Source: Candidatus Mcinerneyibacteriota bacterium (lineage in GTDB: Bacteria; AUK180; JAQVHJ01). From it: DNA of 5,896 nucleotides. This document shows positions 371-5,896 of the stretch, in pieces. The position numbers and the translations under genes were made by a program. Below the pieces are notes generated by a model. The model saw only the letters and a program-made list of their open reading frames with translations. It was not told the origin of the DNA and did no database searches. Position 1 is the first letter of the stretch; the number at the start of each line of letters is the position of its first letter. The stretch spans positions 1 through 5,896 of the forward strand of contig DAOVMD010000217.1 in the NCBI GenBank assembly GCA_030630935.1. Reading direction: 5' to 3'.

Positions 371-400
371 TTGACAATGCTATTTATAGTATGTTATAAT
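371..400 (+). promoter_or_regulatory. Consensus sigma70-type promoter for the operon
   Basis: TTGACA at 371-376 and TATAAT at 395-400 are both exact consensus hexamers separated by 18 bp. A TG at 392-393, one base before the -10, adds an extended -10 element. Transcription should start near 406-408, giving a leader of only about 25 nt before the ATG at 432, with little room for a riboswitch. AT-rich sequence just upstream (about 341-360) could act as a weak UP element. No operator is evident. It is placed to drive every gene downstream in this window. Confidence 0.85.
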
Positions 401-431: not shown

Positions 432-899
432 ATGAAATTTGATAAGAAGAAGTTAAAAGAAGACTTTGATAAGATCCTTGGCATCACCAAAGATAATGCC
501 GAAAAGTTATGGGAAGGCACACTGAGTCTTGTAGATAAGGGGTCCCATCAATATCACATTTTAAAACTTCAAAAAAATATCTATTTCATACAAAGAAAGA
601 TAGATAAGATCAAGTCAAGACTTGGAGCTAAAGCATATAAGCTTTATAAAACCGGCAAAATCACAATAAAGGACATCAAACCTTTTGGTTTTGATATTGA
701 TATCCTTCTTGATGAAATCCATACGATTGAAAAAGATATTCACAAACTTAAAGAGGAGATGACTGCAGGTAAAACCGGTAAAGCTGGGAAGTCCGCAAAG
801 GGTAAGAAAGCCAAGGTAGCCAGGAAGTCTCCCAAGAAAAAAAGTTCAACAAAGACAAAATCAAAAACGGGTTCGAAAGCAAAGAAACCCAAGAAATAA
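432..899 (+). CDS. Coiled-coil protein with histone-H1-like Lys-rich tail
   Basis: I do not recognise this 155-residue protein as a named family. It has two parts. Residues 1-110 are charged and predicted helical, with likely coiled-coil segments at about 42-66 and 92-110 joined by a turn-rich linker (about 73-90, including KPFGFD). Residues 111-155 form a disordered tail of Lys, Ala, Gly, Ser and Thr with 19 Lys and 1 Arg in 45 residues and no acidic residue. The tail includes an SPKK motif (133-136), the type used by histone H1 tails to contact the DNA minor groove. There is no signal peptide or membrane segment, so it should be cytoplasmic. The tail suggests binding to nucleic acid or another polyanion, by analogy with H1-like bacterial tails; this is inference. 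It is first in the operon, with its own promoter and ribosome binding site, and is followed after 1 nt by nfeD. Confidence 0.85.
   Translation: MKFDKKKLKEDFDKILGITKDNAEKLWEGTLSLVDKGSHQYHILKLQKNIYFIQRKIDKIKSRLGAKAYKLYKTGKITIKDIKPFGFDIDILLDEIHTIEKDIHKLKEEMTAGKTGKAGKSAKGKKAKVARKSPKKKSSTKTKSKTGSKAKKPKK
762..896 (+). other. Region encoding the polycationic H1-like tail
   Basis: These 45 codons (residues 111-155 of the first gene) encode a low-complexity Lys/Ala/Gly/Ser/Thr tail carrying about +20 net charge. The sequence is made of short irregular units such as AGK, TGK and SKTK. Such tails often vary in length between strains, so this is the part of the gene most likely to differ among relatives. 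Confidence 0.75.
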
Positions 900-900
900 A

Positions 901-2196
901 ATGTTCCATTTAAAACGATTACCAGTAATATTATTTTTCATTTTATTATTGAATCTTTCTATTTACTCAAATGAAATATTTTTCATAGAAGTTGAGGGAG
1001 TGATTAATCCGGTTTCATCTGAGTTCATACGTGATTCAATTAAGACTGCAGAAGAATTTAATGGAGAATGTCTGATTATTTTACTTGATACTCCCGGAGG
1101 TTTAGATGAAAACATGCGCGAGATTATTAAAGCGATTATGTCTTCACAAATCCCGATTATTGTTTATGTATCACCATCAGGTGCTCAGGCTGCGTCAGCA
1201 GGGACATATATTACGATGAGTGCACATATTGCTGCAATGTCCCCGGGTACGAATATTGGTGCCGCGACTCCTGTTTTGATTGGTCAGACCAGTGGTAAGG
1301 ATACTAAGGTTTCTCCTGAGATGAAGAAGAAGATGATAAATAACTCGATTGCATATTTAAAATCACTTGCGGAGCAGCGTAAACGCAATTCAGAATGGGT
1401 AGTCGAAGCGGTTAAGGAGGGGAAATCGATATCTTCCGAAGAAGCACTAAGTTTAAATGTTATTGATATCATTGCAGGGAATCTTGATGATTTAATTATC
1501 CAAATTAATAAAAAAGATGTCCAGCTTCAGGTTGGGGAAAGAACCATAGATACCGAAGGCAAGAAATTAAAAGAGTTAAAAATGAATTTCAAATTAAATT
1601 TCTTGAAAACTCTTGCTAATCCTAACCTTGCTTATCTTCTTTTCATGGCAGGGCTTCTGGGTATTTATATTGAGATCTCTAATCCAGGTTCAATTTTCCC
1701 GGGTGTAGTTGGGGGTCTTTCTTTAATTCTTGCATTATACGCATTTAATGTTCTCCCGGTTAATACTGCAGGGATTTTATTAATCATTCTTGCATTTATT
1801 TTATTTATTTTAGAAATCAGAATAATCAGTTTTGGAATGCTGACAATAGGAGGTATTGTGTCTTTATTTTTAGGATCGATTTTTTTAATGAAATCTTCAG
1901 TTCCTTTTTATTCAGTTTCATTATGGGTAATAATCCCAACCACTGTATTCATTGCTTTACTTGTGACCTTATTGATTTCACTTGGTATTAAAGCACAGTT
2001 TAAAAGGGTTTCCACTGCCGGTAAGGGTATGGTAGATGAGAAGGGATATATAGAGCAGAAACTTAAAAAGGATTTGTACCTTGTTCATATCCATGGTGAA
2101 TTATGGAAAGGCGAGTCTGAAGAGGTGTTAAAAATTGGGGATAAGGTAATCGTGGAAGATATTGATAATCTTATCCTGAAAATCAAGAAGGTATAA
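901..2196 (+). CDS. Long-form NfeD, membrane-bound ClpP-class serine protease
   Basis: This 431-residue protein has the full layout of long NfeD (stomatin operon partner, PH1510-like). A signal peptide covers about 1-23. A ClpP/crotonase-fold protease domain spans about 25-205. About five membrane segments follow (near 241-258, 265-286, 288-306, 310-330 and 341-363), then a C-terminal OB-fold NfeD domain (about 371-431, GELW at 399-402). The protease domain has DTPGG (63-67) and AASAGTYI (97-104). By family alignment Ser99 is the nucleophile and Lys144, in KMINN before AYLKSLAEQR, the likely partner of the Ser-Lys dyad. Both are present, so it should be active. In the archaeal homologue the protease cleaves the C-terminal hydrophobic part of its stomatin partner, and a slipin gene follows directly here. 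The start lies 1 nt after the upstream stop with no good Shine-Dalgarno site, so translation is probably coupled to the first gene. Confidence 0.93.
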   Translation: MFHLKRLPVILFFILLLNLSIYSNEIFFIEVEGVINPVSSEFIRDSIKTAEEFNGECLIILLDTPGGLDENMREIIKAIMSSQIPIIVYVSPSGAQAASAGTYITMSAHIAAMSPGTNIGAATPVLIGQTSGKDTKVSPEMKKKMINNSIAYLKSLAEQRKRNSEWVVEAVKEGKSISSEEALSLNVIDIIAGNLDDLIIQINKKDVQLQVGERTIDTEGKKLKELKMNFKLNFLKTLANPNLAYLLFMAGLLGIYIEISNPGSIFPGVVGGLSLILALYAFNVLPVNTAGILLIILAFILFILEIRIISFGMLTIGGIVSLFLGSIFLMKSSVPFYSVSLWVIIPTTVFIALLVTLLISLGIKAQFKRVSTAGKGMVDEKGYIEQKLKKDLYLVHIHGELWKGESEEVLKIGDKVIVEDIDNLILKIKKV

Positions 2197-2217
2197 CTTA
2201 AGAATTAATTTTTTAAA

Positions 2218-2223
2218 AGGAGG
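2218..2223 (+). promoter_or_regulatory. Strong ribosome binding site of the slipin gene
   Basis: AGGAGG sits 6 nt before the ATG at 2230. It is the best Shine-Dalgarno site in the window and lies in the largest intergenic gap (33 nt). It suggests the slipin is translated independently and strongly, as expected for a scaffold needed in excess over its protease. Confidence 0.8.
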
Positions 2224-2229
2224 ATTGAT

Positions 2230-2988
2230 ATGGCATACCTAATAATTGTAGTTGTTGGAGTGATTTTTTTGCTTTCAATAATGTTACGAGTTCTAAAAGA
2301 ATATGAAAGAGGTGTAATTTTTCGATTAGGTCGATGTATCGGACAGAAGGGCCCGGGCTTAATAATTTTATGGCCGGTAATAGACCAGATGACCAGGGTC
2401 TCAACTCGAACAATTGCAATGGATGTCCCGCCTCAGGATATTATCACGAAGGATAATGTCTCAATCAAGGTTAATGCAGTTGTATATTTCAGAGTAATTA
2501 ATGCAGTAAAATCAATTATTGAAGTTGAGAACTATCTGTATGCAACTTCACAGCTTGCTCAGACTACACTTAGAACAATTCTTGGTAAACACGAACTTGA
2601 TGACCTTTTATCAGAGCAGGAAGGCATCGCCAAAGATCTTCAGATAAAGATAGATAAGGATACAGATCCTTGGGGAATAAAAGTAAGCCTTGTAGAAATT
2701 AAGCATGTTGATTTACCCACTGAACTTCAGAGAGCAATGGCAAAGCAAGCCGAAGCTGAACGAGAGAAACGAGCAAAGATTATCAATGCAGACGGAGAAT
2801 TTCAAGCTGCACAGAAACTTTCCGACGCCGCTGCAATTATTGAAAAGCATGCGGTTGCAATCCAGTTAAGATATCTCCAGACCTTGAAGGAAGTAGCAGC
2901 GGAAAATAATTCAACTACATTATTCCCGGTTCCAATTGATCTCTTCAAACCGTTTATTGAGCTCGCAGAAAGAAATAAGAAAGAATAA
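2230..2988 (+). CDS. Slipin, SPFH/band 7 (stomatin-like) membrane scaffold
   Basis: This 252-residue protein matches bacterial and archaeal slipins in length and order. One N-terminal hydrophobic segment (about 3-22) anchors it. The SPFH domain follows, with GVIFRLGR (28-35), GPGL (41-44), [13 protein letters not shown] (65-77) and VYFRV (85-89). [16 protein letters not shown] (148-163) leads into the helical [18 protein letters not shown] segment (168-185) and an Ala/Glu-rich coiled coil to about 225. The C-terminal segment [11 protein letters not shown] (229-239) corresponds to the hydrophobic region that the NfeD protease cuts in the Pyrococcus pair. Slipins oligomerise on membranes and mark microdomains. 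Its position just after long nfeD is the classical arrangement. The family assignment is firm; cleavage at this site is inferred from the homologue. Confidence 0.95.
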
Positions 2989-3003
2989 ACAAGGGGGAGA
3001 TAA

Positions 3004-3276
3004 ATGACTAAGACAGATATTGCTGAGAAGATTGCATTAGAATTAGATATTTATAAAATTGAAGCGCGGCAGATTCTGGAGATACTCCTTGATAAAATGA
3101 CAGAAGCGCTTAGTAAGGGTGAGAAGATTGAGATTCGCGGATTAGGTAGTTTTAATGTCAGGGAACGGAAATCTATGAAAAGAAGACACCCGGCAACGAA
3201 GCAGATCATTACTATTCCCGCTCAAAAAGTAGTTAAGTTTATTCCGGGGAAAGATTTGAAAAAAGTAAATATTTAA
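3004..3276 (+). CDS. HU/IHF-family DNA-binding protein
   Basis: At 90 residues this has the normal length of HU/IHF subunits. The N-terminal helical part (about 1-40) supplies dimerisation. The signature IEIRGLGSFNVRERK (42-56) leads into the beta-arm, RRHPATKQIITIPA (60-73), whose HPAT replaces the usual NPxT loop and keeps the Pro that intercalates DNA. The saddle closes with VVKFIPGKDLK (75-85). The EIRGLGSF form is shared by HU and IHF-like proteins, so I do not assign hup or ihf. It binds and bends DNA as a dimer in the nucleoid. A GGGGGAG ribosome binding site (2993-2999) lies 4 nt before the ATG. HU genes usually stand alone or next to housekeeping genes. Here it lies 15 nt after the slipin gene and 8 nt before a lipoprotein gene. 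Confidence 0.94.
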   Translation: MTKTDIAEKIALELDIYKIEARQILEILLDKMTEALSKGEKIEIRGLGSFNVRERKSMKRRHPATKQIITIPAQKVVKFIPGKDLKKVNI

Positions 3277-3284
3277 TTTTCATA

Positions 3285-3923
3285 ATGAAGATATTTCATA
3301 TTTCTATTCTGTTATTTTTGTTGTTATTTTCAGGTTGCTCAACAACCCAGGATGTCCGGAATGATTCAGAATTCTATAACCGGTATCCTGATGCAGTATT
3401 TGATCCGGTATCAGAATCTGCAGAATTACTATACCGGGGCAAGCTTTCCTATATGGATGGTGATCTAATTGAAGCAAGTGTTTTCTTTCAAAGAGCAATT
3501 GGATTTGATTATTATAATCCGGAACCGCACATGCTGCTTGCCGCTGTTTATTTTAACCTTGGTTGGTATGATTTTGCAACATTCGAATTAAATAGAACAG
3601 TTGAATTATTAAACAGTCCTGAATGGCGTGGTATGATATTTTTTATAATGGGTTCCACGTATTATCGTCAGGGGAAATATGAAGATGCATACGGTAAGTA
3701 TAAACAAGCCAGGGCAGAAGGATTTCGGGATCAAAGACTCGATGAAGAGATGAAAGATATTGAGAGCACTTTGAAAATTAAGGAAGAAAAATCTACATCT
3801 GAATCCGAACCTGAAAAGAAGAAGATTAATAAGAAGAAAAAAACAAAATTTGAGAAGAATACAAATTCAAAGGCCTTTTATAAAAAATATTTTAATAAGC
3901 AAATAAAAAAAACTAAGGAGTAA
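3285..3923 (+). CDS. TPR lipoprotein with Lys-rich C-terminal tail
   Basis: This 212-residue protein starts with a lipoprotein signal. The hydrophobic stretch 5-15 ends in FSGC, with Cys18 as the lipidation site. The +2 residue is Ser, which in Lol-type systems favours the outer membrane, if this organism has one. Three TPR-like units follow (about 45-76, 80-110 and 113-146), with the pattern GKYEDAYGKYKQA (130-142) clear in the third. TPR units usually mediate protein-protein contacts. A charged tail follows: an acidic/Ser stretch (167-177) and then 178-212 with 16 Lys in 35 residues. Specific function is unknown; a periplasmic adaptor or envelope assembly factor is plausible. The ATG lies 8 nt after the HU stop and has no Shine-Dalgarno site, so its translation probably depends on ribosomes finishing HU. 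Confidence 0.88.
   Translation: MKIFHISILLFLLLFSGCSTTQDVRNDSEFYNRYPDAVFDPVSESAELLYRGKLSYMDGDLIEASVFFQRAIGFDYYNPEPHMLLAAVYFNLGWYDFATFELNRTVELLNSPEWRGMIFFIMGSTYYRQGKYEDAYGKYKQARAEGFRDQRLDEEMKDIESTLKIKEEKSTSESEPEKKKINKKKKTKFEKNTNSKAFYKKYFNKQIKKTKE
3915..3920 (+). promoter_or_regulatory. Ribosome binding site of short nfeD
   Basis: AAGGAG lies 8 nt before the ATG at 3929 and overlaps the last codons of the TPR lipoprotein gene. It supports the chosen start, which is followed at once by a membrane segment. Confidence 0.7.
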
Positions 3924-3928
3924 ATTAA

Positions 3929-4366
3929 ATGCCGCCACTCTGGATAATTTGGAGTATTCTGGGGATCTTATTTTTAGTTGCTGAAGCATTGACAGTAGGT
4001 TTTTTCCTGGGCTGGTTTGGAATTGCTGCTATAATTACCGCGGTCCTCTCAGCAGTTGGAGTACCATTTGGGTTTCAAGTAGGAATCTTTATAGTATTAT
4101 CAGTAATCGGAATAATGCTTTCGCGGAAATTTGCAGAGAAAGTAACTAAGGAACCGCCGCAGAAAGCCGCAGTGGACAGATTAATTGGATTGAAGGGGAT
4201 TGTAACTTCAACCATTGATAACGCTAAGGGTATCGGTAGAATTACAGTTGACCGGGACTCATGGTTAGCAGATTCATCGGAAGATATAATCATTGAAAAA
4301 GATGAATATGTGAAAATCCTTGCTGTCTCCGGTACTCATTTAATAGTTGAGCCTTATAAAGATTAA
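3929..4366 (+). CDS. Short-form NfeD, membrane protein with OB-fold domain
   Basis: This 145-residue protein is a short NfeD lacking the ClpP-like protease. Three membrane segments (about 4-25, 27-44 and 48-65) form a small integral domain. After a polar linker an OB-fold follows at about 85-143, with IGLKGIV (86-92), GIGRITVDRDSWLADS (101-116, Trp112 at the family's conserved position) and HLIVEP (137-142). Short NfeDs are commonly encoded beside SPFH proteins (the YbbK/QmcA type pair) and are thought to assist microdomain assembly without proteolysis. It is the second NfeD in this operon, two genes after the slipin, so the two NfeDs could act on the same slipin in different ways. Its stop codon shares one base with the purN start (TAATG). 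Confidence 0.92.
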   Translation: MPPLWIIWSILGILFLVAEALTVGFFLGWFGIAAIITAVLSAVGVPFGFQVGIFIVLSVIGIMLSRKFAEKVTKEPPQKAAVDRLIGLKGIVTSTIDNAKGIGRITVDRDSWLADSSEDIIIEKDEYVKILAVSGTHLIVEPYKD

Positions 4367-4980
4367 TGAGAAAAAAGTTTAAACTCGCTGTTTTAGTTTC
4401 AGGGCAAGGTTCCAATCTGCAAGCACTTATTGACAATATAAAATTGGGGAAATTAAAAACACGTATCGAAGTAGTATTATCAGATAACTTCAAGGCTAAC
4501 GCGATTAATATTGCCTTAGAAAATAATATTCCCGCTGTTTCACTTGAAAGGTCAGGTTTTTCCTCAAGAAAGGAATTCGAAGGGAAGATGCTTAAAATCC
4601 TGGAGGGGTATACCCCTGATCTGATTGTGTTAGCAGGATTCATGAGAGTATTATCGAAAAATTTTATTAAGACATTCCCACGTAAAATTATTAATATCCA
4701 CCCTGCCTTATTACCTGCATTTCCGGGACTTGATTCTCAAAATCAAGCATTGGAATATGGAGTTAAAATTTCAGGTGCAACTGTTCACTTTGTAGATGAG
4801 GGTGTAGATACAGGGCCAATAATTATTCAAAAAGCAGTAAGGGTAAAAGATAATGATTCCAGGGATTCACTTGCTGCAAGAATTTTAAAATTAGAACATA
4901 AAATTTTAACAGAAGCAATTGAATTGATTAGAAAGGAAAAAATCATTATCACCGGACGTCAAGTAAAATATAAAAAATGA
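4366..4980 (+). CDS. purN: Phosphoribosylglycinamide formyltransferase (GAR transformylase)
   Basis: PurN transfers the formyl group of 10-formyltetrahydrofolate to GAR, the third step of purine synthesis, in the cytoplasm. The 204 residues compare with about 212 in E. coli. Visible motifs are VSGQGSNLQAL (11-21, phosphate-binding loop), LAGFMRVLS (89-97), INIHPALLPAFPG (109-121) and SGATVHFVDEGVDTGPI (136-152). The catalytic residues Asn110, His112 and Asp148 are all present at the spacing of the E. coli enzyme (N106, H108, D144), so it should be active. No other pur gene is in the window. The ATG overlaps the short nfeD stop by one base and no clear Shine-Dalgarno site is seen, so translation is likely coupled. 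A role with the membrane genes is not implied by its chemistry. Confidence 0.96.
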   Translation: MRKKFKLAVLVSGQGSNLQALIDNIKLGKLKTRIEVVLSDNFKANAINIALENNIPAVSLERSGFSSRKEFEGKMLKILEGYTPDLIVLAGFMRVLSKNFIKTFPRKIINIHPALLPAFPGLDSQNQALEYGVKISGATVHFVDEGVDTGPIIIQKAVRVKDNDSRDSLAARILKLEHKILTEAIELIRKEKIIITGRQVKYKK

Positions 4981-5896
4981 ATTATTTAAAAGTAAAATAT
5001 TATTTAATTACACTGCTTAATATTATTCTTAATGAAGATTTTGGTAGAAAAATAAAGCTGCCATTTTCAGAAGAGGATTTCATTAACGTTGCAGGTAAAG
5101 AGGGGGTTCTTAATTTTATTTATTATTACCTTTGTAAAGAACATCAGGTTCTGGAATTTTCTTCCACCACAGTTAAAAAACTTGAAGAATATTTCTTTAT
5201 GATTTCAGCAATAAATATTGAACTTCAGAAGAATCTATCTGAGTTTATAAAGATTTCAAGAGAAAAGGATTTAAAGGAATTCATTCTTTTTAAAGGCGGT
5301 CACCTGATAAATGAAATATACACACACCCTGCAACTAGGCCAATGGGTGACATCGACATTTTATATTCACAGGATATATTTAATGCATTAAAGGAACTCC
5401 TTTTAGAATTAGGGTTCGTTTATCATCGTGATAGTTCTCAAGGTCATAACTTTAAAAAGGGTGATAGGATAATATTTGACCTTGTAGAATATGAAGGAGA
5501 CTTTTATGTTGGGGAATTAAAGAAAAAACTATCACCGATAAATTATGAAGCTGTTCTAGATTCTACGCATGAAATAGAAATTGACGGGAATCGAGTAAAA
5601 GTTTTAACTAATGAAATGAATCTGCTGCTACTTTCAGATCACATGAGAAAACATTATTACAATAGGTTGATCTGGTTTCTCGATTTTATTTTAACTTATA
5701 AAAAATCAGAGATTGACTATTGTCATATTACTAATACTGCAGAGAAGATTAATCTTAAGAAATCACTTAATTATACATTATTTACAATTCAAAAATATTT
5801 CCCAAATCAAATTAAAGCACGAAATATAAAACTATCACACCTGGAGATGAAAATACTTACCGGAATAATTCAGGAGAAGATTAAGAAAGGGAATAC
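4977..5896 (+). CDS. Nucleotidyltransferase-family protein (NTP_transf_5-like), 3' partial
   Basis: An open frame starts at the ATG at 4977 in an ATGA overlap with the purN stop and stays open for 306 codons to the window edge, so the C-terminus is missing. The centre reads FKGG (105-108), then RPMGDIDIL (121-129), the KG...R.(M)GDIDIL signature of the uncharacterised nucleotidyltransferase family (Pfam NTP_transf_5). Asp125 and Asp127 would be the metal-binding pair. Further on, HMRKHYYNRLIWFLD (222-236) matches the His-rich HxxKHxxxRLxWLLD segment of that family. It is not a transporter or membrane protein. Substrate and role are unknown: related genes occur near polysaccharide and peptide-modification clusters but also alone. 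There is no Shine-Dalgarno site, so translation should be coupled to purN. Family assignment is by eye. Confidence 0.82.
   Translation, partial: MNYLKVKYYLITLLNIILNEDFGRKIKLPFSEEDFINVAGKEGVLNFIYYYLCKEHQVLEFSSTTVKKLEEYFFMISAINIELQKNLSEFIKISREKDLKEFILFKGGHLINEIYTHPATRPMGDIDILYSQDIFNALKELLLELGFVYHRDSSQGHNFKKGDRIIFDLVEYEGDFYVGELKKKLSPINYEAVLDSTHEIEIDGNRVKVLTNEMNLLLLSDHMRKHYYNRLIWFLDFILTYKKSEIDYCHITNTAEKINLKKSLNYTLFTIQKYFPNQIKARNIKLSHLEMKILTGIIQEKIKKGN

Follow-up and report, generated by a model that had tools for sequence, protein, structure and literature searches.

A class-wide NfeD-slipin-HU gene order and its probable place in a growth-linked housekeeping operon

Introduction

Slipins form SPFH rings, and NfeD1b is a ClpP-class membrane protease that acts on its slipin partner, as exemplified by PH1510 and PH1511 of Pyrococcus horikoshii. 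The pairing of the two in SPFH1b-NfeD1b operons is well established, with bacterial cases in Hinderhofer et al. 2009 (PMC2636767). A second point of comparison is offered by the Pseudomonas proteins PhaF and AlgP, in which a helical domain with an H1-like tail makes up an architecture able to anchor granules at the nucleoid (PMC9239181, PMC13052382).

Here we analyze a stretch of DNA from a Candidatus Mcinerneyibacteriota bacterium (hereinafter the window), which is a whole contig of 5,896 bases from a fragmented MAG. A preliminary description had noted a slipin and two NfeD proteins sharing an operon with an HU/IHF-family protein and an H1-like polycationic protein, and had offered two hypotheses, namely a membrane scaffold that contacts the nucleoid and a growth-linked housekeeping operon. 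The second fits better, given the presence of purN and a nucleotidyltransferase in the operon and the unrelated housekeeping context of the primary HU. We accordingly favor, with a probability of about 0.75, a standard NfeD1b-slipin module residing in a growth-linked housekeeping operon together with an HU paralogue, a TPR lipoprotein, purN and the nucleotidyltransferase, all served by one strong promoter.

Operon organization and the NfeD1b-slipin core

All genes from position 432 onward are on the forward strand, in the order given in Table 1, with successive intergenic gaps by gene coordinates of 1, 33, 15, 8, 5, -1 and -4 nt. The six genes previously placed between 432 and 4366 were recovered at those positions, on one strand and never more than 33 nt apart, and Pfam confirmed the families of all but the first (see below); the gene list of that operon thus stands, whereas its end point does not, as purN and the NTP_transf_5 gene continue past 4366.

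Table 1. Features of the window, in order of position.
Feature	Coordinates	Strand	Evidence
Sigma-70 promoter-like site, TTGACA-18-TATAAT, extended -10 (TG)	371..400	+	12/12 consensus match
Small coiled-coil protein ("H1-like"), 155 aa, with a 45-residue basic, SPKK-containing, predicted disordered tail	432..899	+	Family profile, AlphaFold, charge
NfeD1b, predicted ClpP-class membrane serine protease	901..2196	+	PF25145, PF24961, PF01957
Slipin, stomatin-type SPFH protein	2230..2988	+	PF01145 (Band_7) 4e-38
HU/IHF-family protein, second paralogue of the genome	3004..3276	+	PF00216 (Bac_DNA_binding) 3e-27
TPR lipoprotein	3285..3923	+	TPR_2 1e-9; N-terminal signal ends FSGCSTT (lipobox-like)
Short NfeD, membrane segments and NfeD C-terminal domain	3929..4366	+	PF01957 6e-13
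purN	4366..4980	+	TIGR00639 5e-70, above cut-off; 1-nt overlap with short nfeD
NTP_transf_5 nucleotidyltransferase	4977..5894	+	PF14907 4e-31; 4-nt overlap with purN; truncated by contig end

The putative promoter lies 31 nt upstream of the first ATG, and 0.0005 exact sigma-70 matches are expected in the 432-bp upstream stretch. We found no terminator-like site in any intergenic gap of the operon, no plus-strand promoter-like site between the start of the slipin and the HU gene and no match in an Rfam search for RNA elements. The whole operon would then be read as one transcript. The close packing of the genes, with purN and NTP_transf_5 overlapping, together with the single 12/12 site and the lack of an internal terminator, favor the housekeeping reading. 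NTP_transf_5 is coupled to purN across the class and follows it in the other family too.

The long NfeD combines the NfeD1b_N, NfeD_membrane and NfeD-C domains of Pfam. Its ClpP-class protease domain is recovered by PF25145 (2e-17) and aligns with PDB 2deo/3bpp (4e-36, plus a better-scoring alignment over the dyad region), wherein Ser99 and Lys154 are the candidate catalytic dyad by their position in the alignment to PH1510. The slipin is closest to stomatin structures (E 1e-71), with weaker matches to PH1511 and QmcA. Thus, a stomatin-type SPFH domain adjoins a ClpP-class NfeD with a predicted Ser-Lys dyad, and the earlier view of this pairing as an established one agrees with the documented SPFH1b-NfeD1b operons (PMC2636767). 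By analogy to the action of PH1510 on PH1511, NfeD1b may trim or regulate the slipin, and the pair would function in membrane quality control, with the SPFH ring as the scaffold and NfeD1b as the ClpP-class membrane protease.

In the sister family (L047-L051), NfeD1b is reduced to a NfeD C-terminal stub of ~95 aa with one membrane segment, which directly precedes the slipin and leaves it without a protease partner in the operon of this family. The HU, the small protein and purN persist there despite the absence of the protease domain, which indicates that the block is independent of the protease. A short NfeD at the place of 3929..4366 is confined to the window's family, with its two genomes.

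A basic tail on a widespread coiled-coil family

The first protein of the operon had been described as an H1-like polycationic nucleoid-type protein, a label that suits its last 45 residues (20 K/R, 0 D/E) and not its body, which belongs to a different family. Residues 1-110 form the coiled-coil body with a net charge of about +7. AlphaFold predicts a confident helical hairpin at about 39-112, with pLDDT under 55 beyond residue 113 suggesting a disordered tail. The homologue in G001, the other genome with this gene in the operon, has a tail with 17 K/R and 5 D/E, and an SPKKK motif is common to both tails. The tail is lysine-rich and of predicted disorder, as in Hc1, AlgP and PhaF proteins. 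The protein matched no Pfam or NCBIfam family, and the only structural relatives recovered for it were generic hairpins (best E 0.3). Membership in the H1/Hc1/AlgP group was rejected, as there is no family match and the body is of another coiled-coil family; a relation to phasins was likewise set aside, with one member of the coiled-coil family (L164) reaching only E 0.075 against PF05597, below significance.

At E 0.01, a three-row profile picks up the coiled-coil family in 37 of 193 genomes, with weak matches in some. The reciprocal profile, from 24 distant members without the window's family, recovers the window protein at E 1e-12, with no match to an unrelated frame among 13,680. On the strength of these profiles, residues 1-110 belong to a widespread, unnamed family of small coiled-coil proteins. 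Its members (window 432-767, residues 1-112; L138-L165) display a motif that is roughly KIGKLKxDIxxLxRxIxxxFxELGxxVYEL, and several that were tested had no significant Pfam match. Acidic tails occur in L138 and L157, a mixed one in L142, a basic one in L149 and zinc-ribbons in L159 and L165. As the body is shared by proteins with such diverse tails, the H1 resemblance is a property of the variable tail, and the basic version would have been gained or kept in one family. The protein probably oligomerises via the hairpin, with the tail binding a polyanion (DNA, RNA or acidic lipid).

No genome but G000 and G001 has the coiled-coil gene beside nfeD/slipin; the two represent separate genera within one family, and the remaining five class genomes lack the gene, so that its proposed place in a conserved module does not hold. 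Elsewhere, the family is mostly found away from slipin; G100 alone among the genomes with distant members has it near a slipin-like gene, two genes away and on the opposite strand. This distribution and the variability of the tails favor the housekeeping reading.

These data bear on the alternative that slipin/NfeD microdomains are joined to the chromosome by the dedicated HU paralogue, to which one family would add a PhaF-like coiled-coil protein; the hairpin of the latter would dock on the scaffold while its basic SPKK tail binds DNA in the manner of PhaF and AlgP. The combination of a hairpin with a predicted disordered basic tail, the SPKKK shared by both tails and the precedent of granule-nucleoid tethering (PMC9239181, PMC13052382) are in keeping with such a tether, as are the slipin-HU adjacency across the class (7/7 genomes, gaps no larger than 15 nt) and the dedicated nature of the HU copy. 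However, the bridging protein is absent in 5/7 class genomes and is at best a family-level addition, its relatives bear acidic or zinc-ribbon tails, purN lies in the same operon and the other HU of the class is equally fixed beside der-plsY-gpsA. We consider this tether very unlikely.

Phyletic range of the slipin-HU linkage

We surveyed the class through seven genomes of two families and six genera. NfeD, slipin and HU follow one another in one direction in 7/7 of these, with slipin-HU gaps of 15 (G000), 15 (G001), 12 (G002), 12 (G003), 14 (G004), 3 (G005) and -4 nt (G006). Downstream of HU are a small protein (lipoprotein-like in several genomes), purN and, where the contig continues, NTP_transf_5. 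The other family retains this block although it lacks both the coiled-coil gene and the protease domain, which favors the housekeeping reading. The order NfeD-slipin-HU-lipoprotein-purN-NTP_transf_5 is conserved class-wide. A point against the housekeeping reading is the weak orthology of the TPR lipoprotein between the families (31%, E 1e-4 in one genome only).

Outside the class, the best slipin locus from each of 80 genomes was searched in six frames. HU adjoined slipin at 0/80 of these loci, which by the rule of three places the adjacency outside the class below ~4%, and was within 5 kb at 1/80; we estimate a chance expectation of ~1 HU in 80 windows of 11 kb, at about three HU genes per 3-Mb genome. 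None of 30 short NfeD1b loci (L008-L037) had an HU within about 1.5 kb. Two candidates for an independent linkage were rejected: G075, where an HU of a different subtype shares the strand of slipin but is separated from it by ~3 kb with other genes in between, and G174, with rpsA-sppA-HU-YfcE-NfeD1b and the slipin on another contig. Both placements are at about chance level. In G174 (L053 4958-10475), IspH-rpsA-sppA-HU-YfcE-NfeD1b form a single run, which puts HU one gene from NfeD1b.

The neighborhood survey proposed earlier thus shows conservation across six genera and two families and none in the other lineages sampled. The HU-slipin linkage is real, class-wide, of single origin and limited to one class among these lineages; it is a feature of the operon and not an accident of the window. 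The contrast of 7/7 within the class and 0/80 outside it also speaks for the housekeeping reading. We found no report on slipin together with an HU-family protein in the part of the literature covered, and the arrangement may be undescribed. It could alternatively have arisen by one ancestral rearrangement and been retained by inertia, with separate transcription of the genes, a scenario matching the single origin in the tree and the 0/80 elsewhere. We give it hardly any credence against 7/7 genomes from two families with frames that overlap or nearly do so, down to the 4-nt slipin/HU overlap of G006.

A second HU paralogue in the operon

The operon HU scores 95 bits against PF00216 (cut-off 22.4), retains the arm proline P63 in RRHP and has IHF and HU as its closest structural matches. 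It was rejected as an IHF equivalog, with 68 and 65 bits against NCBIfam cut-offs of 111 (IHF-alpha) and 115 (IHF-beta). Exactly two PF00216 genes were found in every class genome, although the incomplete assemblies of G000 and G001 could hide a third. The tree groups the operon copies in a single clade (97/88) separate from the remaining copies; they are a class-specific, monophyletic second paralogue, which most likely became fixed a single time, in the ancestor of the class.

As a synteny control for the slipin-HU conservation, we used the main HU of the class, which occupies a der-plsY-gpsA-HU block conserved between the same two families (L200 2444-6321; L202; L203); in G000, a MerR-type regulator follows this block. 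The main HU is equally conserved beside phospholipid-synthesis genes, so slipin-HU conservation alone is no sign of contact. An HU beside membrane genes is ordinary in the class, and the slipin-HU neighborhood is not special in this respect. That conserved neighbors of HU need not interact with it again favors the housekeeping reading, under which the operon HU would be present through co-expression with growth-linked genes, making no contact with the slipin ring and binding DNA as an ordinary HU dimer. This reading leaves unexplained why the slipin-linked copy is kept in this place class-wide and lost nowhere.

One could posit a regulatory coupling, wherein the operon HU tunes supercoiling or expression upon membrane stress sensed by slipin/NfeD, by co-expression alone. 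The shared promoter architecture and the reservation of a second HU for the operon are compatible with it, but no regulator or stress promoter was seen, the promoter-like site being a plain sigma-70 consensus, and purN sits within the same operon; we regard it as rather unlikely. Being confined to one class and found alongside purN, the linkage is weak evidence for a membrane-nucleoid device. The "H1-like" label for its part goes back to a tail that varies among the members of a widespread, uncharacterised coiled-coil family, and this family is worth naming.

Comparison with known systems

The window shares with PH1510-PH1511 and the other SPFH1b-NfeD1b operons a protease-domain NfeD1b directly upstream of a stomatin-type SPFH protein. 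It differs in the addition of HU, the TPR lipoprotein, a second short NfeD and purN downstream of the slipin, in the preceding coiled-coil gene and in the absence of the protease domain from the sister family. Its first protein resembles PhaF and AlgP in having a helical N-terminal domain and a predicted disordered, lysine-rich H1-like tail; unlike them, it has no significant phasin domain, no granule genes accompany it in the operon and its tail spans 45 residues, against the 195-aa tail of AlgP with a 154-aa KPAA repeat region. Finally, the locus is akin to housekeeping HU/IHF loci, such as der-plsY-gpsA-HU of this class and rpsA-sppA-HU elsewhere, in that HU is fixed amid unrelated genes, some of them with membrane or lipid functions, whereas here HU neighbors a slipin/NfeD pair and is a second paralogue particular to the class.
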